A stretch of 42,372 bases of DNA. Source: a bacterium. Lineage in GTDB: Bacteria > Actinomycetota > Acidimicrobiia > Spongiisociales > ZC4RG35. Within the stretch, counting starts at the first letter, position 1; each line of letters begins with the position of its first letter. Location: assembly GCA_024641285.1 (NCBI GenBank), contig JAHEDH010000011.1, positions 1 to 42,372 on the forward strand, in the 5' to 3' direction. This document shows positions 8,013-41,522 of the stretch, one piece after another. The position numbers were made by a program, and so were the translations under genes. The notes below the pieces were generated by a model that was not told where the DNA came from, searched no databases, and saw only the letters and a list, made by a program, of their open reading frames with translations.

Positions 8013-8018
8013 ACGAGG

Positions 8019-8024
8019 AAATTA
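8019..8024 (-). promoter_or_regulatory. Leaderless-type -10 element of the cyclase gene
   Basis: TAATTT on the minus strand is followed by six bases and GTG 8012. No ribosome-binding site is visible. The 116-bp region up to the divergent giant gene also holds its GGGAGAGG ribosome-binding site. Confidence 0.55.
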
Positions 8025-8128
8025 CTGGAGAAACCCCTGGCGCGCCGACAGGTCGACGGATACCGTATCTGCGGGCGGATTGCGCAGCTCTGGATTCGTA
8101 CATCCGAGAGAAGCAGTGGGAGAGGCAA

Positions 8129-11100: not shown

Positions 11101-14100
11101 GATACCACAACTCGACAGCGGTTCGCCATGGACGGCACGCGTCGAATACACCGCCTCCACCAAGACGCTCGACGTGTATGCCGCTCCGAGTGCTTCAGGA
11201 CTCCCTGCGACACCGACGGTGTCGACCGTACTCGTCGACGACATCGCCACACTCCTGAACAGCTCGGTCGGCTACGTCGGCTTCACTGGCGCGACCGGCA
11301 CACAGAACATCTCGGGCTTCCAGCAGGTCCTCAACTTCAGTTTCGATAGCGGTCCGGCATGTGAGGCTGTCGACCAACGCGGCGTGAGCCGTCCGCAAGG
11401 TTCCCGCTGCGACGTCGGTGCCTTCGAACTCGAGGTCACCCCCGAGGGCACCATCATCAGCGAGCTCGAAGTGAACACGTTCGAGGACACGACCCTCGAG
11501 AGCGGCTTCTCGGTCGAGCTCGGAGCCATTCCATCCGACAGACTGCTCGCAGGCGCATCTGCGATCGTCGGTGCGCCACTCGGCGCAATCGAACTGGACG
11601 CCCCGCTCGACGCCGCCCCGCTCGGCGCGATCGGGCTCGACGCCACTCCGCTCGGGGCGATCCCACTCGGCGCCATCCCGCTCGGGGCGATTCCGTTGGG
11701 AGCGATCCCCCTCGGGGCGATCAACCTCATGGACCTTCCGATCGACGGCGGCTGGGAAGCAGTGCTCGCCGGTACCTCGCTCGCAGGACGTCCCCCGCAG
11801 ACCGTCACCATCGAAGAAGTCTTCGATCAGGTCCCGGCCGACCAACTCGCTGAAGTGCGACTCGCCCAGCTCGATCCAACGTCGAGTGCCTTTGGAGACG
11901 TCAGCGTCGGATCGCTGCTGCTCGGAACGGTCCCGATCTCCGATCTCGACACAGACGGGACCTTGCTCGCCGCCTGCGACGCCGTCACAGGCGGGCCGGC
12001 TGGCAGCTGCCCTGCGAATGCAAGCCCCCTCTCACTGGAGCTCACAGGCTCGTCACTCGCAGCCTCGCCGCTCGGTGCCATTCCCTTGGGCGCCATCCCT
12101 CTCGGCGCCATCCCACTCGGCGCCATCGGGACCGAAGCTGCGCCACTCGGCGCCATCCCGTTGGGCGCCATCCCACTCGGCGCCATTCCGCTCGGCGCAA
12201 TCGGCGACATCCAATCGGCACCGCTGGGCGCCATCCCGCTCGGAGCGATCGGCGATCTGGCCGCCGCACCCCTAGGCGCCATCCCGCTGGGAGCGATCCC
12301 CCTGGGGGCGATCCCGCTCGGAGCAATCCCGCTCGGAGCAATCCCGCTGGGCGCCATTCCCCTCGGAGCCATCGATGCGAACGGAGACGACACAGTCGGT
12401 GACGTCTGCGCCTTCCTCGACGCCGACGCTTCGGCGCAGAGCTGCTCGGATCTCGGACTCGACGACAGTTCGACCCTCAAGGACTACGTCGATGCCGTCG
12501 GAACCGGTGACCTCAGTGCAACACCACTCGGCGCGATCCCGCTCGGCGCGATCCCGCTCGGCGCGATCCCGCTCGGCGCGATCGACATCACCGGCATCCC
12601 GCTCGGCGCGATTCAACTCGGCGCAATCGAACTCGCCGGGACTCCATTGGGGGCGATCCCACTCGGCGCGATCCCCCTTGGTGCGATCCCGTTCAGCGCC
12701 GTGTGCGACGCGATCCCATCCGGGTCATCTGTGACCTGCGATGCCAGTCTCACACTGGCCGACTACCTCGCAGCGACCGGATCGTCGACCCTCGGTGCCA
12801 CGCCACTCGGGGCTATCACGCTCGAAGGTCTGCCACTCGGGGCGATTCCGCTCGGCGCCATCCCACTCGGCGCCATCTCGGTTGCGGGGGTCCCCCTCGG
12901 GGCGATCCCGCTCGGGGCGATCGACCTGCAGACGAGCCCGCTCGGGGCCATTCAGCTGCAGGACACGCCTCTCGGAGCGATCGGCGACACTACGACACTC
13001 GCCGAGGCGCTCCCGCTCGGCGCGATCCCGGCCGAGACCCCGCTCGGCGCCATCGACGACGCACTCGACGGCTTCCTCCTCCAGGACGTGCTCGACCACC
13101 TCACCATCGCCTTCCTCGGTGAGACCGGCGCGTTCGGAGACTTGACGCTGGCAGACGTGCTTGTCGGAATCCTCCTCTCGTCGGACTTCCCGTGGGAGGA
13201 CCTGCCGCTGGACCAGATCGAAGTCCGCGACATCGCCTGTGCAGCTTCCGTTTCAGACGTAGGCGAAGGCGACGGCTTCACCGCCGAGTGCGCTCCCGGC
13301 AATGTCGATACCCTCGACGTGGGTGTCAACTTCCTACTCGAGAGCGGAGACCTGGGTGGCGTCGAGGCGCGGGTCACGATCCCATCCGATTGGGCCTACC
13401 TTGCACGGTCGGCCTGGCTCGACTCCGGCAGTGACCTGTTCGACGTCGAACCGACCACCGAGGGGACAGACCTCGTCTTCGCTCTCCCCGACACCGGGGC
13501 ATCGGGCGGCTCCTCCATCTGGTTGAGATTCTCGGTATACGCCGGGTATCAACTCGGGACCGGCACGATCTCGGCGTCTCTTACGGGTCAGGACAGCCCC
13601 GACTTGAACGCAGACTCGCCCGTCATCACAGTTGTCGACGGTCTCGAACCCAGCAGCCTCGGCGCTCCAACCGGCATCGACGACGACACGCTCTATGTGG
13701 GCTACGTCGACAGCTCGACAGACGTGGACGGCTTCTCGATCCCGTCCGCCGGCGAGGGTGTCCGCACGACCGTGTTTCTATCCAACCTCGACCAGGACAT
13801 CGACACCTTCATCTACCGTCCCGAGTCTGCGCCGCTGTCGGGCGACGGGACCGAGCGTGCGATCCCGCTCGGATCTACGCCCGTCAGCGACGGCATCGAC
13901 TTCGGCGGCAACTCGCCGCTCGAGCCAGAGGTCCAGGGAGACAGCCCACTCGCAGCCCCGGTCGGTGATGTCTTGGCGGACTCGTCCACGAACACAGGAA
14001 CCGACGGTGAGGAACTCACCATCCTCGACGGCCCAACGACCGAGTCGTACACGATCCAAGTCGCCGGGTTCCAGGGCGCCTCCAGCGACCGCCCCTACAC

Positions 14101-17100
14101 CCTCCGCGTGAAGCGGACTGCCGAGGCCGCCCAACCGAACACCTGCTCGCCGAGACAGGCGCCGGACTACACGACACTGTCCGGCGGCGGAGCCAGCATC
14201 GATACCGACACCGTCACGCTGTTCCTCACGAACCCGACTCGTTTCGATGACGTCTACGGCGCCGGATCGTGGAACACCGCGTCGGCGCAATTGGCCAACC
14301 TGGCAGCGCGTGCCGAGGTAGGCGGACAGATCGTCGACATCGCCGATATCCCGGGCGTTGCCGCTGCCTTCGGAACTTGGGACCTCGATCCCTGCGACGT
14401 GTCGGCAGCCAATGACATCGTCGGAGCAATCCAGGTGTGGATCCAGGACAACGCTCCCGAGAGTCTTCGTCACGTGACGATCATCGGCGCAGACGAGATC
14501 GTGCCGTTCGCCCGAGCCGAGGACGAGACCGTGGTCGCCAACGAGAGCACCTACGCCGGCGACTTCGGGGGCAGCCCACTGTTCTCCGCACTGACCACCA
14601 GGCACTACCTCACGGATGCCCCATACGGCGACTTCGATCCGATCCCATGGGTCGGCACCAAGTACGCCTATGTCACCGACCTGTCGGTCGGACGCCTGGT
14701 CGAGAACGCAACGCACATCGCCGGAGCCATTCAGACCTATATCGACAACAACGGGGTCCTGAGCCCAACCACCGCGGCGGTGGCTTCGTACGACTTCCTC
14801 TACGACGGTGCGACGCTGTTGGCGGACCGGCTCGACCTCCAGCTCGGCGGACCCGTGACCGATCGCACGCTCATGGACGATCCGGCGGTCGTGACCGCCG
14901 CGACTGCGTGGACGAACACCGACCTCCAATCGTTGATCGACGGTGTGCCCGACATCATCTCGCCGAATTCGCACTACGACCACTACCGACTGTTGCCGTC
15001 GCAGGAGAACCTGAACGAGACGGAGAACGACCTGTTCACGATCGGCGACCTGCCCGGCGACCTGTCCGACGTGATCATCTTCACCATGGGATGCCACTCA
15101 GGTCTCAACGTCGACGGCAGCATCGGCACCGCAGTCGAGGATCAGGACTGGCCGGAGGTCTACTCGGCGCTCAACGCCATCTACATCGGCAACACCGGGT
15201 ACGGCTACGGCGACTCCGCGACCGTCGCGCTGACGGAGTCGATCATGGCCAACCTCGCTGGGAACCTCGACGGAACCCTGACCATCGGTCAAGCACTCAC
15301 CCAGGCGAAACAGGATCAGTTCTCCAAGGCCGGCCTGTACGGGGTCTACGACCTCAAGGCCATCGAGGAGGCGACCCTGTACGGCCTGCCCTTCTGGCAG
15401 ATCAGTGTGCCTGGCGGTGGACCCACGGCACCCGCCGACCCGACCGCAGGTCCGACCGGCACCGACCCGATCAGCGGGCTGACGGCCGCGTCATTCTCGA
15501 TCGACCCGACCTTCGAGGAGGTCACTTCGGTCAACGGCACGTACTGGACGGTCGACGGCGAGACCGAGTACTTACAGTGGCGTCCGATCCAGCCTCGAAC
15601 CGGTGTCGACGTGACCAAGGACGGTCTGATCGCCACGGGCGCGATCTTCACCGACCTCTTGACGAGGGACCAAGACGTCGTCGACGCAGCGTTCGCACGA
15701 CCAATGACCGTTTCTTCGACACAGCGAGAGCCCGAAGTCGAGACACCTGGCATCGTCTTCCCGACCGGCTTCACGACCGTCGGCACCGGGAACCGCGTGA
15801 ATCCGGATCCGACCGGACCCGCGGTCGAGCAGGTGCAGCGCCTCAACCTGATCCCTGGCCAGTTCCAGGGCGATGCAACGGGCTCGGGCGGCACTCAACG
15901 CCTGTTCGAGGAGATCGAAGGGACCGTGTTCTACCAGCCCGTCGCCAACATCGACTCCATCGACTGGACGCGTCCGTACATCGCCGATGTCACAGCCGCG
16001 GCGGCCGGCGGCGAGGTGCGATTCCAGGTCGCGGCCAGCGACGGAGACTCGGGCATCTCCCGTGTGGTTGTTCTTGTCCGAACCGGACGGAACGTCGACG
16101 ACACGAGCATCTGGACCGACGTGGATCTCGTCGAAAGCGGTGGGGTCTGGACGGGTGCCGCCACCTACTCAAATACCGTTGCACCCCCACTCGACTACTT
16201 CGTCTTCGCAGTCAACGGAGACGGAGTGAGCGCAATCTCGGTCTTCAAGGGTGGGTACTACCAGGCTTCGGCGCCCCCCGGTGGAGGCGGGCTGCCACCC
16301 GTGACTGATGACGAGCCGCCAGTGGTATCGATCGGAGTACCGCCGGCACCGTCGGAGCTCTTCGTCGAGACGGGCTCCGCAGTCCCCGCGCCTTTTGCAT
16401 GCTCGGATGCGCTTTCGCCAGTGACTGAGTGCTCGGCGGAGGTGACTGCTCCCGACAGCAGCGTGTACGCAGTGCTCCCTGGGGAAGCTCTTCCTGCGAG
16501 CGTGCTCGGCGTTTACCAGGCGTCGGTCACTGCAGTAGACGCCAAGGGGAACTCGAGGACGGATTCGTTCGAGTACACCGTCGTTGGCGTAAGCGTCGTC
16601 GTTGCTCCGAACCTGCTTGCAGTCAATTCCCCGGTGTCCCTGACAGCGTCCCTGCTGCCGTCATCCGTGGCTGCCCCCGACTCTGTCGTGCTCAACTGGG
16701 GTGACAGTACGGATGACCTGACGGGTGGAACCTTCGGGTCGACCCTCACAGCGTCTCACGCGTACACCACTCCTGGTGTCTACACCGTGGAGTTGACCTT
16801 GATGTACGGCGATCTGACGATCTCCGACATCTACGAGTTCGTCGTCGTCTACGACCCGAATGGTGGGTTCGTGACCGGTGGTGGCTGGATCGACTCGCCG
16901 GAAGGCGCCTACGTACCCGATCCATCGCAAACGGGCAAGGCGAGCTTCGGGTTCGTGTCCAAGTACAAGAAGGGCCAAAGCACGCCGGACGGCAACACCA
17001 CCTTCCAATTCAAGGCGGCCGATCTCAAGTTCAAGTCGACGAGCTACGACTGGATGGTCATTGCCGGGAAGAAGGCACAGTTCAAGGGGTCGGGCACGAT

Positions 17101-17314
17101 CAACGGCTCGGGCAACTACGGCTTCATGTTGACAGCGATCGATGCTGCGCTCACTCCCTCGACGGATGTGGACCTGTTCCGGATCAAGATCTGGGACAAG
17201 GACAACAACGACACAGCCGTCTACGACAATCAGCTCGGGGCGTCTGACGGCTCCGACCCGACGACGGCGATCGGCGGGGGCTCCATCGTGATCCACGACG
17301 GGAAGAAGAAGTAG
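8129..17314 (+). CDS. Giant secreted multidomain protein: beta-helix, lectin, PLGAI repeat, C25-like peptidase
   Basis: 3061 residues from ATG 8129 (GGGAGAGG precedes it). Order of parts: signal peptide ending near ARAATLS (1-34); beta-helix with GGGI and SGNS turns (35-370); choice-of-anchor-Q-like module with DNGGPT and CDIGAFE (388-448); second beta-helix (451-798); a second anchor-Q-like module (808-1104) split by an inserted L-type-lectin-like domain (833-1072); 42 PLGAI pentapeptides (1150-1642); Ig-like and PPC-like domains (1728-1999); a gingipain/caspase-type peptidase module (2021-2428) with H2282 or H2285 and C2322 in MGCHSG; beta-rich domains; a PKD-like domain near 2830-2905; and a lysine-rich C-terminal domain (2911-3058). 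No sortase motif, SLH repeat or C-terminal membrane span is seen. A surface adhesin carrying its own processing peptidase is the best reading. Function is inferred only. Confidence 0.85.
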   Translation: MMGSTRVSRWQTIAVAFSMIASLVVVLPSAPARAATLSVPSQYTTIQAAVGVAQDGDVIEVAPGSYQESISLFDKAVTIRSTGGADVTTITPTGPGALIVALSATDDGNGNIIAVGSLVLDGFTLTGGDRPSSNPAGAVWVSNIYSSMTLLNSRVINNSTASEGGGITNWGTLTIDNSLISGNSAGDDGGGIYNTGVLTITNSTITGNSTSGNGGGIHNEGSSLAIAHALTMDSSTISDNNAGGFGGGLSNVSEATAVVERSLISGNDGVFGAGVWVSGPSVATNDVQLLNSTVSGNLGTGVEADQTTANAYLYFSTVTNNTTGVYGRGTSPNNTVVLARSLVAGNTTDCQGSIGMAAYNLVGVQGAGCVLPSAGSGDQIGSPASPIDPLLGPLSDNGGPTLTHALLSGSPAINAEPQFACLPEDQRGEPRPEPGGTACDIGAFEVQAAPLQNLINATPSGGTVQVPAGTYTETIFVDGGKTLVGGGATAGDVVIDGTGGSGPTVVVAGSAAFENLTITGGSSGSTGGNMLLDTADVTLTDVIVSNGTAQAGANIAAVGGSTLTIVGSTVSGGQAGTSGGGIFVDGSQLEVNGSVIAANSAAIGNGAGVAATNSIVMVDRSTLLNNSAGDGAGRGGAVYGDENSSIDIVDTTLDSNTADYGGGAYAAGTLNVSGSLFASNTATGPDGSTGGGIGGTGTISIVNSTLDGNSSAGNGGAVGIISGVTTLNNVTLTDNAAGARGGAFSGDPGATLRIGNSLSAGNTNIGGGPDCINFIFESIGHNVLEGAPVGCTLQSTDKVVLAAAAPESLTDNGGPTLTRALGDGHPAIDAGGLRLDYQVFDATTLGDWELNGFANSVNGEILLAAPAPFFTVGSAFLVDPVPVAEDFVAQFDFRIDALNTSGADGITFTITDRPNAANGGGGLLGLSNSFNEQTGVRTGAIIGVSVEFDTYQNGTGEGANDINDAQVLDAFNHIGIDIDGNVSSVANNTGSIPQLDSGSPWTARVEYTASTKTLDVYAAPSASGLPATPTVSTVLVDDIATLLNSSVGYVGFTGATGTQNISGFQQVLNFSFDSGPACEAVDQRGVSRPQGSRCDVGAFELEVTPEGTIISELEVNTFEDTTLESGFSVELGAIPSDRLLAGASAIVGAPLGAIELDAPLDAAPLGAIGLDATPLGAIPLGAIPLGAIPLGAIPLGAINLMDLPIDGGWEAVLAGTSLAGRPPQTVTIEEVFDQVPADQLAEVRLAQLDPTSSAFGDVSVGSLLLGTVPISDLDTDGTLLAACDAVTGGPAGSCPANASPLSLELTGSSLAASPLGAIPLGAIPLGAIPLGAIGTEAAPLGAIPLGAIPLGAIPLGAIGDIQSAPLGAIPLGAIGDLAAAPLGAIPLGAIPLGAIPLGAIPLGAIPLGAIPLGAIDANGDDTVGDVCAFLDADASAQSCSDLGLDDSSTLKDYVDAVGTGDLSATPLGAIPLGAIPLGAIPLGAIDITGIPLGAIQLGAIELAGTPLGAIPLGAIPLGAIPFSAVCDAIPSGSSVTCDASLTLADYLAATGSSTLGATPLGAITLEGLPLGAIPLGAIPLGAISVAGVPLGAIPLGAIDLQTSPLGAIQLQDTPLGAIGDTTTLAEALPLGAIPAETPLGAIDDALDGFLLQDVLDHLTIAFLGETGAFGDLTLADVLVGILLSSDFPWEDLPLDQIEVRDIACAASVSDVGEGDGFTAECAPGNVDTLDVGVNFLLESGDLGGVEARVTIPSDWAYLARSAWLDSGSDLFDVEPTTEGTDLVFALPDTGASGGSSIWLRFSVYAGYQLGTGTISASLTGQDSPDLNADSPVITVVDGLEPSSLGAPTGIDDDTLYVGYVDSSTDVDGFSIPSAGEGVRTTVFLSNLDQDIDTFIYRPESAPLSGDGTERAIPLGSTPVSDGIDFGGNSPLEPEVQGDSPLAAPVGDVLADSSTNTGTDGEELTILDGPTTESYTIQVAGFQGASSDRPYTLRVKRTAEAAQPNTCSPRQAPDYTTLSGGGASIDTDTVTLFLTNPTRFDDVYGAGSWNTASAQLANLAARAEVGGQIVDIADIPGVAAAFGTWDLDPCDVSAANDIVGAIQVWIQDNAPESLRHVTIIGADEIVPFARAEDETVVANESTYAGDFGGSPLFSALTTRHYLTDAPYGDFDPIPWVGTKYAYVTDLSVGRLVENATHIAGAIQTYIDNNGVLSPTTAAVASYDFLYDGATLLADRLDLQLGGPVTDRTLMDDPAVVTAATAWTNTDLQSLIDGVPDIISPNSHYDHYRLLPSQENLNETENDLFTIGDLPGDLSDVIIFTMGCHSGLNVDGSIGTAVEDQDWPEVYSALNAIYIGNTGYGYGDSATVALTESIMANLAGNLDGTLTIGQALTQAKQDQFSKAGLYGVYDLKAIEEATLYGLPFWQISVPGGGPTAPADPTAGPTGTDPISGLTAASFSIDPTFEEVTSVNGTYWTVDGETEYLQWRPIQPRTGVDVTKDGLIATGAIFTDLLTRDQDVVDAAFARPMTVSSTQREPEVETPGIVFPTGFTTVGTGNRVNPDPTGPAVEQVQRLNLIPGQFQGDATGSGGTQRLFEEIEGTVFYQPVANIDSIDWTRPYIADVTAAAAGGEVRFQVAASDGDSGISRVVVLVRTGRNVDDTSIWTDVDLVESGGVWTGAATYSNTVAPPLDYFVFAVNGDGVSAISVFKGGYYQASAPPGGGGLPPVTDDEPPVVSIGVPPAPSELFVETGSAVPAPFACSDALSPVTECSAEVTAPDSSVYAVLPGEALPASVLGVYQASVTAVDAKGNSRTDSFEYTVVGVSVVVAPNLLAVNSPVSLTASLLPSSVAAPDSVVLNWGDSTDDLTGGTFGSTLTASHAYTTPGVYTVELTLMYGDLTISDIYEFVVVYDPNGGFVTGGGWIDSPEGAYVPDPSQTGKASFGFVSKYKKGQSTPDGNTTFQFKAADLKFKSTSYDWMVIAGKKAQFKGSGTINGSGNYGFMLTAIDAALTPSTDVDLFRIKIWDKDNNDTAVYDNQLGASDGSDPTTAIGGGSIVIHDGKKK
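11576..13054 (+). repeat. PLGAI pentapeptide repeat tract inside the giant gene
   Basis: About 42 exact PLGAI units plus QLGAI variants span residues 1150-1642. They run in tandem blocks of up to seven units, broken by short linkers (GTEA, GDIQS, DITG, SVAG) and three longer spacers with Asp-rich, Cys-pair segments such as NGDDTVGDVCAFLD. Most units use different synonymous codons, which shows selection on the protein. Four units at 12531-12580 are nearly identical DNA and look recently duplicated. The five-residue period resembles pentapeptide-repeat proteins, but the sequence does not fit their A(D/N)LXX rule. Confidence 0.95.
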
Positions 17315-29657: not shown

Positions 29658-30567
29658 TGGTGAGGCCGCCGATGATCTGCTTTTGGGCGACCAGGAACGT
29701 CAACACGATCGGGGCGGCGCCGATGAGCGCGGCCGCGGCGAGACTCCCCCATTTGGCGGCGTACTCGCTCTCGACGAACAGCTGGAGGCCGACCGCGAGC
29801 GTGAACTGTTCGGTGGCACGGATCAGCGTTCGGGCGAGGATGAACTCGGAGTAGATGTTGATGAAGGTGATGATGAAGATCACCGCCAGCACCGGGCGGG
29901 CGAGCGGAAACACGATCCGGAAGAAGATCTGGGCCGGGCTGGCGCCGTCGACCTTGGCCGACTCGTCCAGCGAGTTGGGAACGGTGTCCATGAAGCCCTT
30001 GATGAGGAACGCGTTGAATCCGATCGCCCCTCCGAGGTAGACCATGATCAGGAAGGTGTGGCTGTTGACCCCGAACCCCTCGAAGGTCTCGCCGACCTGG
30101 ATCGCCAACAGGAACAGGGCGATGAATCCGAGGAACTGCGGGAACACCTGAACCAACAGCAACGTGAGCAGCCCGGCCCGCCTCCCCTTGAAACGGAGAC
30201 GGCTGAAGGCGTAGGCAGCCAGAGAGGCGACGATCACGTTCAGCACCGACGCGATGATCGCCACCTTCCAGGTGTTCCACAGCCAGGTGCCCACCGGAGT
30301 GAGCGGACTGTCGAAGAGCCCCGTGAAGTTCTCTGTGGTCAAGGACTTGGGGATGAGACGAGCGGTGGCCAACGAGTCCGACGAGTTGAACGATGCGGAC
30401 AGGATCCAGATCACCGGATACAGCGAGAAGAAGGCGAAGATGATCAACAGGACGTGACGCCAGCCGATCTCGCGCATCCACTTCCGGGGCTTCATCCGCC
30501 GCTCGACCACCGTGGCCTTCTCTCGGGTGATCGCCGGCGGCGTCACGGCAGCATCGCGACTAGCCAT
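29638..30567 (-). CDS. malG: Maltose/maltodextrin ABC transporter permease MalG
   Basis: 309 residues with six membrane helices. The cytoplasmic EAA loop, which contacts the ATPase, reads SLDESAKVDGASPAQIFFRIVFPL. The start overlaps the malF stop by eight bases (ATGGCTAG). The length and the short N-terminal tail fit the MalG branch. With MalF it forms the membrane channel. No ATPase (MalK/MsiK) gene is in the window; in Actinobacteria one shared ATPase often serves several such importers. Confidence 0.92.
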   Translation of the reverse strand: MASRDAAVTPPAITREKATVVERRMKPRKWMREIGWRHVLLIIFAFFSLYPVIWILSASFNSSDSLATARLIPKSLTTENFTGLFDSPLTPVGTWLWNTWKVAIIASVLNVIVASLAAYAFSRLRFKGRRAGLLTLLLVQVFPQFLGFIALFLLAIQVGETFEGFGVNSHTFLIMVYLGGAIGFNAFLIKGFMDTVPNSLDESAKVDGASPAQIFFRIVFPLARPVLAVIFIITFINIYSEFILARTLIRATEQFTLAVGLQLFVESEYAAKWGSLAAAALIGAAPIVLTFLVAQKQIIGGLTSGAVKG

Positions 30568-32176
30568 AGACCTCCTCCAATCGTTTCGTGAAGCGGAAGC
30601 TGACGGCCGACAGGACTGCGACGATGACGAAGATCATCACGACGATCGCCGACCCCAGCGCGAATTGATTGCCGCGGCCGGCATTGACGGCCAGATCGAA
30701 GGTGAACGAGATGAGGATGTCGGTCTCACCGAGCGGCACGGCGGCACTCGGGACCGGCGGACCGCCGTTCGTGAGCATGAAGATCAGCACGAAGTTGTTG
30801 AAGTTGAAGGCGAACGACCCGATCAGCAGCGGGGCGGTGGACACCAGGAGCAAAGGCAGCGTGATCGTACGGAACACCCGCCATGCCGAGGCGCCATCGA
30901 CCCTGGCGGCCTCCTTCAACTCCTCTGGGATCGCCGTGAGGGCCCCGGACGTGATGAGGAACATGTATGGGAAGCCGAGCCAGGCGTTCACCAGGAGCAC
31001 GGCGACCTTCGCCCAGAACGGGTCACCCAGCCACGGGATGGCGTTCAGACCCAGGCTCTCCAACAGGTTGTTCACCTGACCGTAGGACTCGTTGAGCAGC
31101 CCGCGCCAGACCAAGACGGACAGGAACGCCGGAATGGCGTAGGGCAGGATGTAGATCGACCGATAGACCGCACGGCCACGGAGCCTCTCGTCCTGAAGGG
31201 CATTGGCGAGAGCCAATCCGATGGCGAATGTGATGAACACCGAGCCCAGCGCAAAGATCAGGTTCCAGGTGAAGACCTTCACGAAGGGATTGCGGATCCG
31301 CTCGTTGGTGAAGACCTCTGCATAGTTGTCGAACCCTTCGACGATGACCCATCCCGGGTCGAGGCGACGGCCGTCTTCACAGATGAAGTTGCCGGCTTCG
31401 ATCGAGCATGTGACGTCCTCCTGCGCATCGAACAGGGTGTCGGTGTTCGGGTCGTAGGCGTAGCGCTGGCCTGCCTGGATCAGCTGAGCCGTGGACGCCG
31501 ACTGAGCGCGGGCGACTCCCTGGCCGGGGATGTCGAGCACGAGGTTCTCGATCTGATTCGCGATCGCCAGGAGATCGCGGAGCGAGAGGATCTGGAAGTC
31601 GCCGATCTGGTCGGGTGATTCGACCGAGATGTCGACCCCGGGATCGATCAGCGGGTCGTCGATCGGGTCGGAGGTGCGGTCCCTGGCGATGCCAAAATAG
31701 GTGTTGCCTTCCGGATCGCGCACCAGGAACGCCAGTTGTCCGGCGGGATCCCGATAGATGTCGAGCTCGAGGGGGACACCGTCGCCTTCGGCCCGGATCA
31801 CCTGGCTCTCGAGCTGATCGATGACCTGTTGCTTCGCCAACACGTTGCCGGTCTGCCAGTTGGTCAGCGAGACATACCCGGTGTAGATGACGGGGAAGAC
31901 GACGAAGATCGCCATGAAGATGAGGCCGGGAGCCAGCCATTTGGAGGCCTCGGCGCGGGGGCTGAGATACGCCCAGTTGAGGAGCAGCGCCGCCCCGACG
32001 AACATCGTCAACAGCAGGTAGCTCTCGTTGGCGATCAGCACCGGGACCGTGAAGACGATCAGCGCGTCGATGATGGCGATGACGCCGATCTTGACCCAGA
32101 AGCCCCAGGACAGAGGGGAGGACGACCGGGCCCGATTCATGGTCGGTCGATCGTCTTGCACCGTCATTTTCGGCAC
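30560..32176 (-). CDS. malF: Maltose/maltodextrin ABC transporter permease MalF
   Basis: 538 residues from GTG 32176 (GGTGGGG upstream; ATG 32167 is an alternative). Three N-terminal helices (about 25-115) are followed by a roughly 170-residue extracellular insert (about 120-285), then the permease core with the EAA loop ELKEAARVDGASAWRVFRTI. The insert matches the position of the P2 domain of enteric MalF, which grips the binding protein. It contains two Cys close together (TCSIEAGNFIC) that could form a disulfide. The long insert supports a maltodextrin importer rather than a generic sugar permease. It lies 120 bp after malE, with a strong hairpin in the gap. Confidence 0.92.
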   Translation of the reverse strand: MPKMTVQDDRPTMNRARSSSPLSWGFWVKIGVIAIIDALIVFTVPVLIANESYLLLTMFVGAALLLNWAYLSPRAEASKWLAPGLIFMAIFVVFPVIYTGYVSLTNWQTGNVLAKQQVIDQLESQVIRAEGDGVPLELDIYRDPAGQLAFLVRDPEGNTYFGIARDRTSDPIDDPLIDPGVDISVESPDQIGDFQILSLRDLLAIANQIENLVLDIPGQGVARAQSASTAQLIQAGQRYAYDPNTDTLFDAQEDVTCSIEAGNFICEDGRRLDPGWVIVEGFDNYAEVFTNERIRNPFVKVFTWNLIFALGSVFITFAIGLALANALQDERLRGRAVYRSIYILPYAIPAFLSVLVWRGLLNESYGQVNNLLESLGLNAIPWLGDPFWAKVAVLLVNAWLGFPYMFLITSGALTAIPEELKEAARVDGASAWRVFRTITLPLLLVSTAPLLIGSFAFNFNNFVLIFMLTNGGPPVPSAAVPLGETDILISFTFDLAVNAGRGNQFALGSAIVVMIFVIVAVLSAVSFRFTKRLEEVYG

Positions 32177-32239
32177 GGTAGCCCCACCGGCTGACGGTCG
32201 GCGCCGATTGCGAGGACTTCGAAAAGCTCACGGAACATC

Positions 32240-32275
32240 GAGGAGGGCAGGGTCGATATGGACCCTGCCCTCCTC
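32240..32275 (-). terminator. Intercistronic hairpin between malE and malF
   Basis: Perfect 15-bp arms 32240-32254 and 32261-32275 around a six-base loop, in the malE-malF gap. There is no U-tract. It probably protects the malE message end or partly stops transcription, so that binding protein exceeds permease. Confidence 0.75.
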
Positions 32276-32296
32276 TTCGCTCAGGTTCTGACCTTG

Positions 32297-33580
32297 TCAG
32301 CCCTCGATTGCGGCACGTACGGCTTCTGCCGCCGTTGTCATGGCCGTGTTTGCGTCGATCTCACCGTTGCGGAGCAGCTGGAGGTTGTCTCCAAGCGTTC
32401 CCCACACGCTCGACATCTCGGGGATGTTGGGGATCGGCACACCGTCGGCCGCCGAGGCCCCGAAAGCCGAGATGGCGGCGTTGCCGGCGACGTTGTCGAT
32501 GATCGTCTGATGCACCGGCGGGCGCCCGTCGGCGGCGAAGAGGGCGTTCTGGCCTTCTTCGCTGGCGATGAAGTCGAACAGGAACGACTGCGCAACCAGC
32601 TTGTTCTCGCTGAACGAGCTGAGGAAGAACGCCTGCACGCCGATGAACGGCTGCGGGGTACCACCCTCGATCGTCGGGATCTTGGCGACCGACCACGGAA
32701 CGGTCCAGTCCGCAGCGCCACCGAGCTCCCACGGACCAGTGATCCAGAACGGCTGCTCGCCGGCGAGGAACAGGTTCTTGGCCTCGTCGTAGTTCGTCTT
32801 GCCGAGCACTCCGCTCGCACTGATCTCGCTCAGGAACTCGGCTCCGGCGATGGCGCCCTCCGAGTCGAGGCCGACATCGGTCGGGTCGTAGACACCGTCG
32901 GCCTCACCGAAGATGTAGCCGCCGGTCGCCGAGATGAACGGATAGTTGTGATAGGCGTCGGTTGCGTCACCGGCTCCGGGGACGCCGAGGCAGGCCTCGA
33001 CGGCGTCGGCCTCACATGCTGCGATGAGATCGTCGAAGGTTGCCGGCGCCTCTGCGACGAGATCGGTGTTGTAATAGAGCGCAACGGCCTCGACCGCGTA
33101 CGGAACGCCGTAGAGCGTGCCGTCGAACGTCAGGGCGTTGAGCGATGCATCGGTGAACGGGGCGGACCAGGCGCCGCCTTCGATCGGTTCGAGCACACCA
33201 TTGGTGGCGAGCTCGCCGACCCAGTCGGAAGCGCCGATGAAGATATCGGGGCCTTCGCCGGCGGGACCGGCCACGCCGACCTGGTCACGAATCTGCCCGA
33301 AGTCGACCAACTCGACGTTGATGACGACACCGGTCTCTTCGGTGAATGCCGGGGCGACCTCTTCGATGGCGCTTGCACGGTTCTCGTCCGCCCAGATGAG
33401 CAGCTCGATGGCCGGCGCGGCCTCGGTCGTGGTGGTTGTCTCGGGTGCGGCGGTCGTCGTCGTGACCTCCGCCTCTGTGGTGGTCGTTTCGTCGGCGGCG
33501 TCGTCGCCACCTCCGCACGCTGCGACGACGAGTGCAAACACTGCAAGCAGTGCGACCCATGGCATCTTCTTGAACGTCAC
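32297..33580 (-). CDS. malE: Maltose/maltodextrin-binding lipoprotein
   Basis: 427 residues. The signal peptide ends in LVVAAC, with lipidated Cys22. A Thr-rich linker (about 30-55) follows, then the two-lobed solute-binding domain. MalE-like marks are LLIWADENRASAI, GPDIFIGASDWVGELATNG, LYGVPYAVEAVALYYNTDL and PFWITGPWELGG. It captures maltodextrins at the cell surface and hands them to MalFG. GTG 33580 has GAGGAGG a few bases upstream. It is the first gene of the operon. Its leader holds an 11-bp hairpin, and the region shared with the LacI gene has an AT-rich palindrome. Confidence 0.92.
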   Translation of the reverse strand: MTFKKMPWVALLAVFALVVAACGGGDDAADETTTTEAEVTTTTAAPETTTTTEAAPAIELLIWADENRASAIEEVAPAFTEETGVVINVELVDFGQIRDQVGVAGPAGEGPDIFIGASDWVGELATNGVLEPIEGGAWSAPFTDASLNALTFDGTLYGVPYAVEAVALYYNTDLVAEAPATFDDLIAACEADAVEACLGVPGAGDATDAYHNYPFISATGGYIFGEADGVYDPTDVGLDSEGAIAGAEFLSEISASGVLGKTNYDEAKNLFLAGEQPFWITGPWELGGAADWTVPWSVAKIPTIEGGTPQPFIGVQAFFLSSFSENKLVAQSFLFDFIASEEGQNALFAADGRPPVHQTIIDNVAGNAAISAFGASAADGVPIPNIPEMSSVWGTLGDNLQLLRNGEIDANTAMTTAAEAVRAAIEG

Positions 33581-33637
33581 CGTTCCTCCTCGGTCAGGTT
33601 GTCTATCGGGTGTTCCTATACGGAATGAGTGTGAACC

Positions 33638-33662
33638 CAGGCACGCTCTGCGAGCGTGCCTG
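33638..33662 (-). promoter_or_regulatory. malE: 11-bp hairpin in the malE leader
   Basis: CAGGCACGCTC and GAGCGTGCCTG pair perfectly around a three-base loop, 58 bp before the malE start. If transcribed, it would cap or stabilise the 5' end; otherwise it is a possible operator. Confidence 0.55.
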
Positions 33663-33705
33663 CTCGGAGTTAAGCATGCCTTTTCGGTAGTCGTAGGCGA
33701 TCTTG

Positions 33706-33719
33706 CAGAAAATTTTCTG
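33706..33719. promoter_or_regulatory. Candidate LacI-family operator
   Basis: CAGAAAATTTTCTG is a perfect 14-bp palindrome between malE and the LacI gene. CTTGCAG overlaps its left edge and GATCTTG is repeated on both sides. CTTGCAG boxes occur in Streptomyces amylase and mal promoters (from memory). It lies just upstream of the regulator's own promoter. Confidence 0.6.
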
Positions 33720-33722
33720 ATC

Positions 33723-33753
33723 TTGTCGAAAATCCGTTCTCCGAATGATTAGT
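33723..33753 (+). promoter_or_regulatory. Weak promoter of the LacI-type gene
   Basis: TTGTCG (33723-33728) and GATTAG (33747-33752) are 18 bp apart. Transcription would begin about four bases before GTG 33765, which has no ribosome-binding site, so the mRNA would be nearly leaderless. Confidence 0.4.
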
Positions 33754-33764
33754 CTCAACTCACA

Positions 33765-34796
33765 GTGACGAGTCGACCAAAGCTCCAGGAGGTCTCCGAC
33801 CTCGCAGGCGTCAGCCTGGCAACCGTCAGCCGCGTGCTCAACGCTAAACCGGGCGTGGCGAGTGAGACCAGGGCCAAAGTGCTCAGCGTGCTCGCCGATC
33901 TCGGGTACCAGGACATCCCGGTCCGACCGGAGCAGACCGGCGTCGTCGGCATCGTCACTCCGGAGATGGACAATCCGATCTTCCCGCTGATCGCCCAGAC
34001 CATCGAGGCCCGCCTCGCCAGGCAGGGGTTGCTCTCGATGATCTGCCCGGCGACCTCGGACACCGTCAACGAGCAGGAGTATCTCGATCACTTCGCCGCC
34101 ACCCATGCCGCCGGAATCGTGATCGTCAACGGGCGGTACGCCGACCCAGATGTCGGATTCGGCCCGTATCAGAAGCTCGCCGCCTCCGGCATCCCGGTCG
34201 TCCTCGTCAATGGAGCGAGCGAGACCGACAACGTGCCACTCGTTGCGATCGATCTCGAAGCCGGTGCGAGGATGGCGGTACAGCATCTCGCCGCAATGGG
34301 CCATCGGCGGATCGGCGTGATGGTCGGGCCACAGCGCTATTCGAGCAGTCGCCTCCTCAAGACCGGCTACCTCGCCGAGATGGACCACCTGGGTCTCGAC
34401 ACGGGCGACGACCTCACCTCTGAGACACTCTTCACACTCGAGGGTGGGCGGGCCGGAGTCGCGAAACTGATAGAGGCCGGAGCTACCGGCATCGTCACCG
34501 GTAGCGACCTCATGGCGATCGGAGCCATCAATGGCATCCGGGCGTGGGGCAGATCGGTGCCCGAAGACGTGTCGGTCGTCGGGTTCGACGGGACTTCGCT
34601 GGCATCGGTGACGAACCCGAAACTCACATCGCTACGACAGCCGGTCGAACGGATGGCAGCGAGCGTGGCCTGGCTCCTCGAGAACACGAACCCGGATCTC
34701 GCCGACACGGTGCACATGTTCCAACCGGAGCTGATGATCGGCCGATCGACCGGACGCGTCGTGGTCGAGACGCCCTCAGGTTTCAAAGCGAGCTAG
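33765..34796 (+). CDS. LacI-family transcription regulator of the maltodextrin locus
   Basis: 343 residues. The N-terminal helix-turn-helix is PKLQEVSDLAGVSLATVSRVLN (about 5-27), and the hinge helix region ends near residue 60. A periplasmic-binding-protein-like sensor domain follows (GVVGIVTPEMDNPIF to VGFDGTSLASVTNPKLTSLRQP). It is divergent from malE, so it most likely represses malEFG-amylase and itself until maltodextrin or a derivative binds. The perfect palindrome at 33706-33719 is the best operator candidate. It ends 14 bp from a convergent gene. Confidence 0.93.
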   Translation: MTSRPKLQEVSDLAGVSLATVSRVLNAKPGVASETRAKVLSVLADLGYQDIPVRPEQTGVVGIVTPEMDNPIFPLIAQTIEARLARQGLLSMICPATSDTVNEQEYLDHFAATHAAGIVIVNGRYADPDVGFGPYQKLAASGIPVVLVNGASETDNVPLVAIDLEAGARMAVQHLAAMGHRRIGVMVGPQRYSSSRLLKTGYLAEMDHLGLDTGDDLTSETLFTLEGGRAGVAKLIEAGATGIVTGSDLMAIGAINGIRAWGRSVPEDVSVVGFDGTSLASVTNPKLTSLRQPVERMAASVAWLLENTNPDLADTVHMFQPELMIGRSTGRVVVETPSGFKAS

Positions 34797-37685: not shown

Positions 37686-37707
37686 CGTGAAAGGTGCGTG
37701 AAAGGTG
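37686..37707. promoter_or_regulatory. Perfect tandem direct repeat, SARP-box-like
   Basis: CGTGAAAGGTG occurs twice without a gap (37686-37696 and 37697-37707). Direct repeats with an 11-bp step, one helical turn, are the known binding pattern of SARP regulators. The site lies 66 bp upstream of a SARP gene and 36 bp before its -10 element, and also upstream of the divergent Trp-repeat gene. Confidence 0.6.
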
Positions 37708-37743
37708 GAGCCGGTCGACTGGTCCGGTGGCCGCGCCGCCACA

Positions 37744-37749: not shown

Positions 37750-37772
37750 GCGACGGTCGGAAGGGGCGACGA

Positions 37773-40700
37773 GTGGAATATGGAATCCTCGGGAGTCTCG
37801 AGGTGCGGTCGGCCGGTGAGCTGGTTGAGGTCGGACCCCGCCGACTGCGAATGCTTCTCGCGCTGTTGGTGATCAACGCCAATCGAGTCGTCACCACCGA
37901 TCGGATCCTCGAAGAGCTCTGGGGCGACGAGGCCGACGGCAAGGAGAATGCACTCTGGGTCTACATCTCGAGGCTTCGCTCTGCGCTCGGTGATGAAAGT
38001 GCGCTCGTCACGCGCGATCACGGCTACTCGCTGATCGTCGACGAGGCGGACATCGACGCCCGCCGCTTCGAGTCGACGCTCAAAGCCGGGCGAGCACTGC
38101 TCAAACAGGATCCGGCACAGGCGTCGATCCTGCTGAGCCAAGGTCTCGAGCTGTGGCGCGGGCCGGCTCTGGAGGAATTCGCCTACGAGGAGTTCGCCCG
38201 ATCCGAGATCGCACGGCTCGAGGAGCTCCGTGTGGCAGCCATCGAGGACCGGATCGACGCCGATCTCCGTCGCGGGCTCGCGGGCGAGCTCGTCGGTGAA
38301 CTTGAGGTGCTGCGCCACGCCCATCCGACTCGCGAACGGCTGGTGGGCCAGCTCATGCTGGCGTTGTACCGCTCCGGCCGGCAGTCCGACGCGCTGCGCT
38401 CGTTCGAGGCATACCGCACGCGGCTCGGTGAGGAACTCGGGCTGGAGCCGTCGCCGGAGCTGCAACGACTCGAAGAGCAGATCCTGCTGCACGACTCCCG
38501 GATCCGCGCCCGTGAGCCCGACCGGAGAAGCTCGCAGGCGTCGCTGTCCCGACCAATGCTCGTGAACCCTTTCAAGGGCCTGCGGGCCTTCCACGAGGAC
38601 GACAGCGCCAACTTCTTTGGTCGGGACCGGCTCGTGGCCGACATCATCCGCCGGCTCGACTCGGGCACCTCGCTGATCGGTCTCGTCGGCCCGAGCGGCT
38701 CGGGGAAGTCGAGTGTGGTGCGGGCCGGAGTGCTCCCGGCGCTCCGGAAAGGCGCAATCGATGGGTCGGATCGCTGGTTGATCGCGCACATGGTTCCCGG
38801 CGCACATCCCTTCGCCGAGCTCGAGGCGGCACTCCTGAGGGCCTCACTCGATGCACCAGACAGTCTGTCCGAGCAGCTGGCGGACCCCGAGACGGGGATC
38901 CTCCGGGCCGTTCTGCGCGTGCTCCCGGAAGAGCAATCCCGACTCGTCCTGGTCGTGGACCAGTTCGAAGAGCTGTTCATCCTCGTCGAGGACGAAGCCC
39001 GGAGAAGCGACTTCTTGAAAGGCTTGCTCCTGGCGGCAAGCGATCCGCACAGTCGCGTCATGATCATGTTCACCCTGCGCGCCGACTTCTACGATCGTCC
39101 TCTGAGACACCCGGAATTCGGCACCGCGATGAGTGCGGGGATCGTCAACGTCGTGCCAATGAGCCCCGACGAGCTGGAAGTCGCGGCTCGGCGGCCGGCG
39201 GAAGAGACAGGTGTCGCGCTGGAGCCGTCACTGCTCGCTGCACTGCTGGCAGATGTGCTCGGTCGACCCGGCGGGCTGCCCCTCTTTCAGTACACGTTGA
39301 CGGAACTGTTCGATCGTCGCAGTGATCAGACGCTCACCCTCGCTACCTATGAGACGATGGGCGGGGTGGTCGGCGCACTCGGTCGCAGGGCCGATGCGAT
39401 CTACGCCGACCTCGACCCGGCTGAGCAGGCAACTGCACGACAGCTGTTCCTCCGCCTGGTCACCATCGCCGACGGTGGAGAGTGGGGAAGGCGCCGCGTG
39501 CCGGCGTCGGAGATCCTGTCGCTCGATATCGACGTCGTCGCTCTCCAGACCGTCATCGACGCGTTTGTGGCACATCGGCTTCTCACGCTTGATCGCGATT
39601 CGGTCACAGGCGCACCCACGGTCGAGGTCGCGCACGAAGCCCTCCTGACGAACTGGCAGCGTCTCCAGACGTGGATCGAAGACGCCCGCGACGACCTCAA
39701 ACGCCACGACGCGCTGACGGCTGCGCTCAGCGAGTGGGTCGACGCGGGCCGCGATCCCGGCTATCTGGTGAGCGGGGCCCGCCTCGCTTCCTATGACCAG
39801 TGGGCCTCCGAGACCACGATGCGCCTCACGGAGACCGAGCGCGACTTCATCGACCTGAGCAGAGAGCACAACGCCAGAATCGAAGGCGAGCGCAGCGACC
39901 GCGAACACAGAGCCAGGAGATCGGCTCGGCGACGCGGGGCCGGAATGGCAGGCGTGACCGGAGTGATCGCTATCGCAGCACTCGTGGTCTTCGGAGCAAT
40001 CGGCGGCGATGAAGGGCCTACCGTTGCCTTCTTTGGGCTCCCCGAAGACAACGGCTGGAACGCCAATATCGTGGCCGGCTTGGATCGCGCGACCCGAGAG
40101 TTCGATCTGGCTCGAGAAGATGCTCGGCCCACGGTGGATCCCTCGGGCGAGTTCCGCGCCATCGCCGAGAGCGGCGCCGACCTGATCGTCACCGACGCTG
40201 CGCCCACCTACTACGCCCCCGACGTGTTCCTCGACTTCCCCGAGATCTCCTTCGCGGTCATCGATGCCGTCGTCGATGCTCCCAACACCATGAGCATCCT
40301 GTTCGCCAACGAGCACGGGGGCTACTTGGCCGGGGTTGCAGCGGCGATGAAGTCGGAGACAGGGATCGTCGGCTTCGTTGGAGGTCTCCGCCTCACGCCG
40401 ATCGAGGAGTTCCGGGCTGGGTTCGAGGCCGGGGTATACCGCATCGATCCCGACATCGAGGTGCTGGCCACGTACATCGAGGAACGGCCCGACAGCGGGA
40501 TCGGATCGGAGGCGTTCGCGCGCTCCGACCTCGGGGAGATACGGGCAACGGCTCTCTACGAACTCGGGGCGGATGTCGTCTTCCACGCCGCAGGGTTCTC
40601 CGGATTCGGAGTGTTCGACGCGGCCCGTCGCCAGTCGGACGTTCAGGATCGCCACCTCTGGGCAATCGGGGTCGACAACGACCAGTGGTATTCGACGGAC

Positions 40701-41522
40701 GTGGTCACGCGCCGGCACATACTCACTTCGATCATCAAACGCGGGGACGTCGCGGCATTCCTCGCCACCGAGCAGTTCATCGAAGGGGGATTCACGTCCG
40801 GAACCCGCGAGATCGGACTGGCCGATGACGCCTTCGACTTCTCGACAGAGGGCGATGGCCTGACGGACGCGATCGTCGCCCGGCTCCAGTCGATCAAGGC
40901 GGAAATCGCCGAGGGCCGGATCACCGTGCCAGCACTACCGACCGGCGACCTGCTCACCAGCGAGCGCGGCCAACTCGACGCGTTCGTTCCGTTCGGGACC
41001 GGAACCTACACGGTGAACGTGTTGGGAACACCCATCACGTTCACCGTGGAAGGTTTGTGGTCGACGCGACCGGTAGAAGACGGCTTGTTCGTGATTTCGG
41101 CGCCTGAGTCGACGCGGCCCGGCGATCACGACATCGTGTTCGTCCGGCCGACCAACCTGATCGATCCCTCCACGAACGAACCGACGCTCGCAACGGGCGA
41201 TATCGATCGATGGATCGCAGCTCCCCCAGACACGGTCTCGGTGTCTGAGGTCACCTCGACAACCGTGGCAGGGATCGATGGAGTGGCGTTCGACGTCGTC
41301 GTGGCAGATGACGCCGACTGTCTGTTGGATGGTCAGTCCAATTGCGTTCCGTTTCTCACCGTCGGTGAGACCGTTGGACACTTCGACCGGGGGCTCCATT
41401 ACCGAGTCCTCTGGCTCGATCACCCCGACGGACCGATCGCAATCGGCATCGGCACGACCGACTCGGATCCAGCGTGGTTCGATACCGCTCGAGACGTCAT
41501 CGACACGGTCGCGTTCGGCTGA
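37773..41522 (+). CDS. Membrane SARP regulator: winged helix, BTAD, STAND ATPase, TM, BMP-type sensor
   Basis: 1249 residues from GTG 37773. OmpR-type DNA-binding domain (1-95: LLVINANRVVTTDRILEELWG); BTAD helical domain (97-245: LGLEPSPELQRLEEQIL); STAND ATPase (about 265-690) with NPFKGLRAF, FFGRD, Walker A GPSGSGKSS (about 308-316) and Walker B VVDQFEELF (D395); one membrane helix (about 724-745) after a basic stretch; then a PnrA/BMP-like solute-binding domain outside (748-1062: VAFFGLPEDNGWNANIV, NEHGGYLAGVAAAMKSETGIVGFVGG); and a 185-residue C-terminal domain of unknown type. BMP proteins bind purine nucleosides or related ligands. Inference: outside ligand binding is passed through the membrane to the ATPase and DNA-binding head. 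Related SARP-STAND proteins usually end in TPR or WD40 repeats. No transporter genes are adjacent. Confidence 0.9.
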   Translation: MEYGILGSLEVRSAGELVEVGPRRLRMLLALLVINANRVVTTDRILEELWGDEADGKENALWVYISRLRSALGDESALVTRDHGYSLIVDEADIDARRFESTLKAGRALLKQDPAQASILLSQGLELWRGPALEEFAYEEFARSEIARLEELRVAAIEDRIDADLRRGLAGELVGELEVLRHAHPTRERLVGQLMLALYRSGRQSDALRSFEAYRTRLGEELGLEPSPELQRLEEQILLHDSRIRAREPDRRSSQASLSRPMLVNPFKGLRAFHEDDSANFFGRDRLVADIIRRLDSGTSLIGLVGPSGSGKSSVVRAGVLPALRKGAIDGSDRWLIAHMVPGAHPFAELEAALLRASLDAPDSLSEQLADPETGILRAVLRVLPEEQSRLVLVVDQFEELFILVEDEARRSDFLKGLLLAASDPHSRVMIMFTLRADFYDRPLRHPEFGTAMSAGIVNVVPMSPDELEVAARRPAEETGVALEPSLLAALLADVLGRPGGLPLFQYTLTELFDRRSDQTLTLATYETMGGVVGALGRRADAIYADLDPAEQATARQLFLRLVTIADGGEWGRRRVPASEILSLDIDVVALQTVIDAFVAHRLLTLDRDSVTGAPTVEVAHEALLTNWQRLQTWIEDARDDLKRHDALTAALSEWVDAGRDPGYLVSGARLASYDQWASETTMRLTETERDFIDLSREHNARIEGERSDREHRARRSARRRGAGMAGVTGVIAIAALVVFGAIGGDEGPTVAFFGLPEDNGWNANIVAGLDRATREFDLAREDARPTVDPSGEFRAIAESGADLIVTDAAPTYYAPDVFLDFPEISFAVIDAVVDAPNTMSILFANEHGGYLAGVAAAMKSETGIVGFVGGLRLTPIEEFRAGFEAGVYRIDPDIEVLATYIEERPDSGIGSEAFARSDLGEIRATALYELGADVVFHAAGFSGFGVFDAARRQSDVQDRHLWAIGVDNDQWYSTDVVTRRHILTSIIKRGDVAAFLATEQFIEGGFTSGTREIGLADDAFDFSTEGDGLTDAIVARLQSIKAEIAEGRITVPALPTGDLLTSERGQLDAFVPFGTGTYTVNVLGTPITFTVEGLWSTRPVEDGLFVISAPESTRPGDHDIVFVRPTNLIDPSTNEPTLATGDIDRWIAAPPDTVSVSEVTSTTVAGIDGVAFDVVVADDADCLLDGQSNCVPFLTVGETVGHFDRGLHYRVLWLDHPDGPIAIGIGTTDSDPAWFDTARDVIDTVAFG

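Follow-up and report, generated by a model that had tools for sequence, protein, structure and literature searches.

SARP transcription regulators are sorted into small, medium, large and SARP-LAL types in a 2024 review whose main text contains no word beginning with 'membrane' (PMC10972967). In AfsR, NOD and TPR parts restrain the SARP head and ATP relieves the restraint, and the operators of SARPs consist of direct repeats spaced 11 or 22 bp, of which the 3' repeat lies 8 bp from the –10 element (PMC10936776). In regulators such as ToxR and CadC, a winged helix in the cytoplasm is joined by one membrane helix to a C-terminal sensor outside (PMC5936718), and the positions with which the BMP-family proteins BmpA and PnrA bind nucleosides have been described (PMC13325309, PMC7093131). 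Here we analyse a receptor gene in a 42,372-nucleotide stretch of DNA from a bacterium of the Acidimicrobiia (assembly GCA_024641285.1, contig JAHEDH010000011.1; the whole stretch is called the window below). In the sequence, the head and the operator pattern mark the window protein as a SARP, the switch marks it as an nSTAND1 protein and the sensor as a BMP-fold receptor. On balance, it is probably a single-protein transmembrane STAND-SARP one-component activator that responds to nucleoside-like ligands and switches on its own gene; the ligand, the topology and the sign of regulation are what we infer.

Domain layout of the receptor

37773..41522, + strand: receptor gene, 1249 residues, GTG start, homologues across the phylum
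37759..37766, + strand: Shine-Dalgarno-like GGAAGGGG, 6 nt 5' of the GTG, read from the sequence
37848..38030, + strand: winged-helix DNA-binding domain Trans_reg_C, residues 26–86 (Pfam, 5.3e-14)
38052..38486, + strand: BTAD, residues 94–238, which completes the SARP head (Pfam, 1.8e-43)
38568..39758, + strand: nSTAND1 ATPase, residues 266–662, Walker A GPSGSGKSS and Walker B VVDQFEELF (Pfam, 3.3e-116)
39831..40001, + strand: long predicted helix, residues 687–743, from STAND to membrane segment (AlphaFold, DSSP)
39945..40001, + strand: predicted single transmembrane helix, residues 725–743 (hydropathy and charge)
40041..40934, + strand: PnrA/BMP-type nucleoside-binding domain, residues 757–1054 (Pfam Bmp, 8.8e-41; AlphaFold; Foldseek)
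40956..41519, + strand: C-terminal tail, residues 1062–1249, presumed outer accessory domain, no recognised family

Along the chain, Pfam places Trans_reg_C, BTAD, nSTAND1 and Bmp in this order, and with the hydropathy profile this bears out the arrangement given in an original prediction, which was made from the DNA letters: winged helix, BTAD, STAND ATPase, membrane helix and PnrA/BMP domain. The features of SARP membership, an OmpR-type N-terminal winged helix followed by a BTAD (PF03704), are both present by Pfam. We found that the nSTAND1 domain is near full length (model positions 1–378 of 379; 389.5 bits against a cut-off of 27.1). The Walker motifs GPSGSGKSS and VVDQFEELF, which the prediction had named, are both found intact in the translated open reading frame, and the core nSTAND1 motif residues are invariant across the aligned STAND sequences (alignment A3). 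ATP binding and hydrolysis and switch behaviour are predicted from these intact motifs. Among Protein Data Bank sequences, a phmmer comparison matched the BMP domain to PnrA/TmpC at 1e-34. The C-terminal tail and the operator 5' of the gene are points that the prediction did not contain. The tail (about 190 residues) matched no Pfam family and has a low predicted local distance difference test score (pLDDT) in AlphaFold; among the compared loci, it is common to the window protein and L034 only.

Fold and ligand pocket of the outer domain

When residues ~746–1058 were modelled with AlphaFold from 62 sequences, the block had a pLDDT mostly above 90. The top Foldseek match is T. pallidum PnrA with inosine (2fqw; 1.7e-26; template-modelling (TM) score 0.76 by target; 30% identity in the alignment). 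Other nucleoside-bound BMP proteins are the next matches, and Bacillus Med stands lower in the list. The predicted BMP fold of residues 748–1062 thus survived this check. The model of the SARP-STAND half, built from four sequences (pLDDT 73.6, predicted TM score 0.41), is adequate for secondary structure and not for domain packing. It predicts a winged helix-turn-helix, an all-helical BTAD, a P-loop NTPase and a helix at residues 687–743 that would enter the membrane, with a pLDDT that declines from about 90 to 41–72 along the length of that helix.

At the BmpA/PnrA nucleoside-binding positions, the window protein has W762, D831, F880, F915, V967, D968 and K989; all seven positions are kept, with Trp in place of the first stacking Phe. 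In 109 stand-alone BMP sequences, the same positions hold F (103), D (108), F (109), F (94) or W (15), V (108), D (109) and K (109). In 27 receptor rows, which include one copy of the window sequence, Asp is found at the D831 position in 24, Asp at the D968 position in 24 with Glu in the other 3, and Lys at the K989 position in 24. The first stacking position drifts in the receptors (W in 9, F in 5, the rest non-aromatic). Because 13 of the 27 rows are non-aromatic here, the receptors would not all bind canonical nucleosides, and some relatives probably sense other ligands than the window receptor. The pocket of the window receptor is near-canonical, so a nucleoside-like molecule is the best guess for its ligand.

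Predicted membrane helix and topology

Membrane helices were predicted from hydropathy and charge, with no dedicated predictor. Segment 725–743 is the only strong hydrophobic stretch of the window protein (mean Kyte-Doolittle value 2.42); the 20 residues on its N-terminal side include 8 Lys or Arg, and the 20 on its C-terminal side include none. With this hydropathy and positive-inside bias, the membrane segment that the prediction had placed at residues 724–745 held up. Of 31 receptors compared, 30 have one membrane helix with an excess of Lys and Arg before it; L051 (G172:C47) is the exception, has no helix and is possibly a cytosolic sensor. The helix is not particular to the BMP form, since it is common after nSTAND1, including in WD40 versions such as L168 of the same genome. 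By hydropathy and charge, the window protein has winged helix, one transmembrane helix and outer sensor in a single chain, as in the ToxR/CadC layout. Taken together, anatomy, fold, membrane helix and positive-inside bias agree and support a SARP head inside and a BMP domain outside.

A putative operator 5' of the receptor gene

37688..37706, + strand: putative SARP operator, perfect 11-bp direct repeat TGAAAGGtgcgTGAAAGGt (TGAAAGG-N4-TGAAAGG), from shuffles and related promoters
37715..37720, + strand: putative –10 (TCGACT), 8–9 bp 3' of the second repeat, from column conservation

Because SARP direct repeats are 11 or 22 bp apart (PMC10936776), we tested period 11 in the DNA 5' of the gene. 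The perfect 11-bp tandem at 37686–37707 consists of CGTGAAAGGTG twice; none of 2000 shuffles yields such a tandem, and no further copies of the repeat with up to 3 mismatches lie within the window. Across 41 promoters of related genes, period 11 is the commonest of periods 7–33 (9 observed; mean 1.3 and maximum 5 in shuffles). The pattern WAAGK-N6-WAAGK, set from inspection, has a match in 9 of the 10 promoters from the SARP clade to which the window protein belongs, with none at any other spacing, and it occurs once in the 42-kb window. Fixed beforehand, this pattern matched 8 of 19 promoters that were fetched afterwards, and it is also present in L233, a locus of another class whose promoter had not been inspected when the pattern was set. 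A relaxed form, WAAG-N7-WAAG, which was chosen after the data of the fixed-pattern test had been seen, is found in 25 of 52 promoters (15 of the 17 new ones) versus 0.07 expected from shuffles, and all other periods between 6 and 30 together gave one WAAG pair in the 52 promoters. These counts are not independent events because the promoters are related. Other 11-bp repeats lie 5' of some related genes (L066, L221, L172).

When the 25 promoters were aligned on the box, base +30 was T in 25 of 25 (2.0 bits) and base +25 was T in 16 of 25, and the columns near them mostly carry low information. The T at +30 and +25 places the –10 hexamer 8–9 bp 3' of the second repeat, as SARP promoters require; a sigma-70 scan of the window promoter gave no match. 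Direct repeats at the SARP spacing near a –10 are thus present as a sequence pattern, to which binding is putative. In the assembled genome, the sole perfect TGAAAGG-type site is in the receptor's own promoter. Elsewhere, the genome-wide search gave weak 2-mismatch sites (4 versus 1 in a backwards control), and a wider pattern gave two GGAAG matches. As the sole perfect site is in the receptor's own promoter and the gene 3' of the receptor appears convergent, the clearest output is the receptor itself, and the first output is probably positive autoregulation that acts as a self-amplifying switch.

At a separate locus (L265, L266; G363:C122, 12476–23453), three related SARP-type genes with frames of 1645–1665 residues are arrayed, and each has its own TTAAGT-type 11-bp repeat 5' of it.

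Distribution and modularity

We searched 395 genomes of the class and 396 of the phylum, plus one named locus; scoring was limited to the few top candidates of each genome, so that genome counts are lower bounds. A STAND and a BMP domain share one frame in at least 26 genomes, mostly Acidimicrobiia, and a SARP head is seen wherever the contig extends far enough. The architecture had been put forward as unusual; it is not unique. Five receptor genomes of the phylum sample lie outside the class, and one of these, G601, has the receptor on a single 5.6-Mb contig, which argues that the architecture is not an assembly chimera. In the searches made of G270, the sole other genome of the same genus searched, the receptor was not found, so its distribution is patchy.

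In a tree of 79 BMP domains, the 25 receptor BMPs form one clade apart from the stand-alone BMPs (100/98, in all bootstrap trees), which is consistent with one capture followed by divergence; the long branches call for caution. The receptor STAND domains also group, less firmly (76/90). In 190 of 190 pairs, the BMP domain is less conserved than the STAND and SARP domains (mean identity over available pairs 34%, 50% and 47%, respectively). Outer parts of other kinds are found on the SARP-nSTAND1-transmembrane chassis: SBP_bac_1, which is sugar-type (L207, L211, L212), and WD40 (L210, L215, L216, L168 and others). L043 (G357:C94) has tandem outer solute-binding domains at residues ~809–1365, BMP and then SBP_bac_3 (2e-29), and L167 (C179 of the same genome as the window) has a Ser/Thr protein kinase head on nSTAND1-transmembrane with an unrecognised 790-residue outer part. 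With heads and outer domains swapped in this way, head, switch and sensor are modules. The wider proposal, for which we judge the case evenly balanced, is that Actinomycetota have modular transmembrane STAND receptors with interchangeable outer domains (BMP/PnrA, SBP_bac_1, BMP with SBP_bac_3, or WD40), a SARP head on the DNA and conserved self-activating operators.

Seven loci (L014, L015, L022, L025, L026, L027, L032) have frames of ~700–800 residues with two tandem BMP domains and neither SARP nor STAND.

Neighbouring genes

The prediction had stated that no importer genes lie nearby. Sugar-type importer genes do lie 4–7 kb from the receptor (SBP_bac_8 at 32300–33580, BPD_transp_1 at 30563–32176), and the statement holds for the BMP-type permease family BPD_transp_2, which has no member on the receptor's contig. 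In the same genome, another BMP gene lies beside two BPD_transp_2 permeases on contig C164. The source assembly has 224 contigs and is ~90% complete, so that roughly 10% of the genome may be absent from it. Conserved neighbours were rejected as a clue to output, as there are two subgroup-specific neighbour sets and the window has neither.

At 30563–34796 of the window, the sugar-type importer genes (BPD_transp_1, SBP_bac_8) adjoin a divergent LacI regulator, and an open frame of 3103 residues lies at 8003–17314 on the + strand. Among the relatives, L045, L048, L052 and L208 have the receptor followed by a conserved open reading frame of unknown nature and, where checked (L045, L208), a luciferase-like monooxygenase. 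Divergent, apparently secreted HExxH proteins are encoded at L042:2041–2757, L043:1059–1679, L050:6175–6864 and L206:996–1745, and these genes share the operator-bearing intergenic region with the receptor.

Proposed mechanism and alternative explanations

In the mechanism we propose, the BMP clamshell would close on a nucleoside, or a molecule like one, that is present outside the membrane, and this change would reach nSTAND1 through the membrane helix and the long helix next to it. The outer BMP domain would replace the usual C-terminal sensor of a STAND protein and put the brake on the SARP head under its control. nSTAND1 would then exchange nucleotide and free the SARP head, perhaps clustering receptors, and two SARP heads would occupy the direct repeat and recruit RNA polymerase. 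The DNA would be engaged beside the membrane, as for ToxR/CadC (PMC5936718).

Several findings weigh against this proposal. The predicted TM score of the STAND model is just 0.41, 13 of 27 receptor rows have a non-aromatic residue where the base would stack, and the window –10, TCGACT, is a weak consensus match. The WAAG operator is absent from most receptors that lie outside the SARP clade of the window protein, no conserved output gene adjoins the receptor and no single gene recurs among its relatives. L051 has the SARP-nSTAND1-BMP order without a membrane helix, so that a cytosolic protein of the BMP-STAND-SARP kind is possible.

The alternative that survives best, although we consider it unlikely, is a transceptor or accessory sensor: the outer BMP-like domain would sense a partner (a loaded BMP lipoprotein or its importer) and report transport activity, binding no free ligand. 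The BMP protein beside two permeases on C164, the loss of pocket aromatics in several receptors and the fact that CadC works with the transporter LysP (PMC5936718) fit this model; however, the window pocket is complete, which the model does not need, and the receptor and importer genes are unlinked. Somewhat less likely again is release by proteolysis, in which ligand binding would cause the protein to be cut close to the membrane and free a soluble SARP-STAND fragment to reach the DNA. Some membrane regulators are known to undergo regulated proteolysis, CadC under acid stress among them according to the title of a reference in PMC5936718, and in four relatives a divergent gene for an apparently secreted HExxH protein lies next to the receptor gene. 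In contrast, we found no cleavage motif, the HExxH proteins appear to be secreted and not intramembrane, none of them lies beside the window gene, and proteins of the ToxR/CadC type can act unreleased.

We regard as improbable a STAND immune or conflict receptor whose outer domain detects a phage or rival molecule so that the STAND switch starts a defence programme. nSTAND1 was named from conflict systems (PMC8195603) and the outer domain is the fastest-evolving part; however, a search of the defence catalogue PADLOC gave no match to the window protein, in place of a killing domain the protein has a transcription head as effector, with a putative operator of its own, and the ribose-side pocket residues are kept. 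To the same small degree, the hydrophobic segment might not span the membrane and the BMP domain might read intracellular nucleosides in the cytosol, as the equal domain order without the segment in L051 would allow; the Kyte-Doolittle value of 2.42, the strong positive-inside bias and the presence of the segment in 30 of 31 receptors argue otherwise. A chimeric assembly or a decayed, non-functional fusion has a negligible chance of being the explanation: the fragmented assembly (224 contigs, ~90% complete) would permit it, but recurrence in at least 26 genomes, including the single-contig one, refutes it, and the motifs are intact and the promoter repeats conserved.

If the modular receptor class proposed above exists, it would offer a one-chain, ATP-gated route from an outside ligand to a promoter. 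Most work on STAND switches has dealt with cytosolic sensors that carry repeat domains and have ligands that are not known. Here the sensor is a solute-binding fold of known ligand class, so that small molecules and a defined operator could serve to test the whole chain of ligand, STAND gating and promoter. While switch and DNA head stay alike, the outer domain of these receptors diverges, which would provide a natural series of sensor variants, and the family-wide direct repeats would be ready operators for reporter tests of uncharacterised large SARPs.

Comparison with known systems

In the literature, we found no paper on a BTAD/nSTAND protein with a solute-binding domain, an absence that is weak because subscription papers were not covered; protein databases may list the same domain combination. 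Like AfsR and other large SARPs (SARP, NB-ARC and TPR), the window protein has a SARP head and then a STAND-class ATPase, its putative operator is an 11-bp direct repeat at a fixed distance from the –10, and the NCBIfam AfsR model aligns to residues 2–299. Unlike them, it has nSTAND1, a predicted membrane helix and an outer solute-binding domain. The comparison with AfsR-type proteins in the original prediction therefore stands for the SARP head with its STAND-class ATPase and not for the kind of ATPase, which is nSTAND1 and not the NB-ARC of AfsR. Neither NB-ARC nor TPR was matched by Pfam in the window protein at E 0.1, and AfsR identity was rejected on these absences and on the score of the NCBIfam AfsR equivalog (153.9 bits against a cut-off of 1430).

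The outer domain shares its fold and ligand-contact residues with the PnrA, BmpA and BmpD lipoproteins (PF02608); in contrast to these, it has no signal peptide or lipobox and is fused after a STAND ATPase. An importer lipoprotein was rejected because the domain is internal, the STAND domain and the membrane helix precede it and no BPD_transp_2 is on the contig. Med of Bacillus (2hqb), the comK activator, also has a BMP fold with a regulatory and not a transport role (Foldseek TM score 0.79 by target), and it is a separate protein without a SARP head or a STAND domain. The nSTAND1-transmembrane-WD40 proteins of Actinomycetota share nSTAND1 and the membrane helix, often with the same SARP head (L168, L215, L216); their outer part is WD40 or other and not BMP, and L167 differs in its kinase head.

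With ToxR and CadC, the window protein shares the cytoplasmic winged helix, the one membrane helix and the C-terminal outer sensor, while in the window protein BTAD and nSTAND1 lie between the winged helix and the membrane helix. To our knowledge, ToxR and CadC have no BTAD or ATPase between head and membrane, and their sensors are not BMP-type solute-binding proteins. Membership in the ToxR family was rejected because BTAD and ATPase intervene; the likeness is in the way of working, and the ToxR scheme would thereby gain an ATP-gated counterpart.

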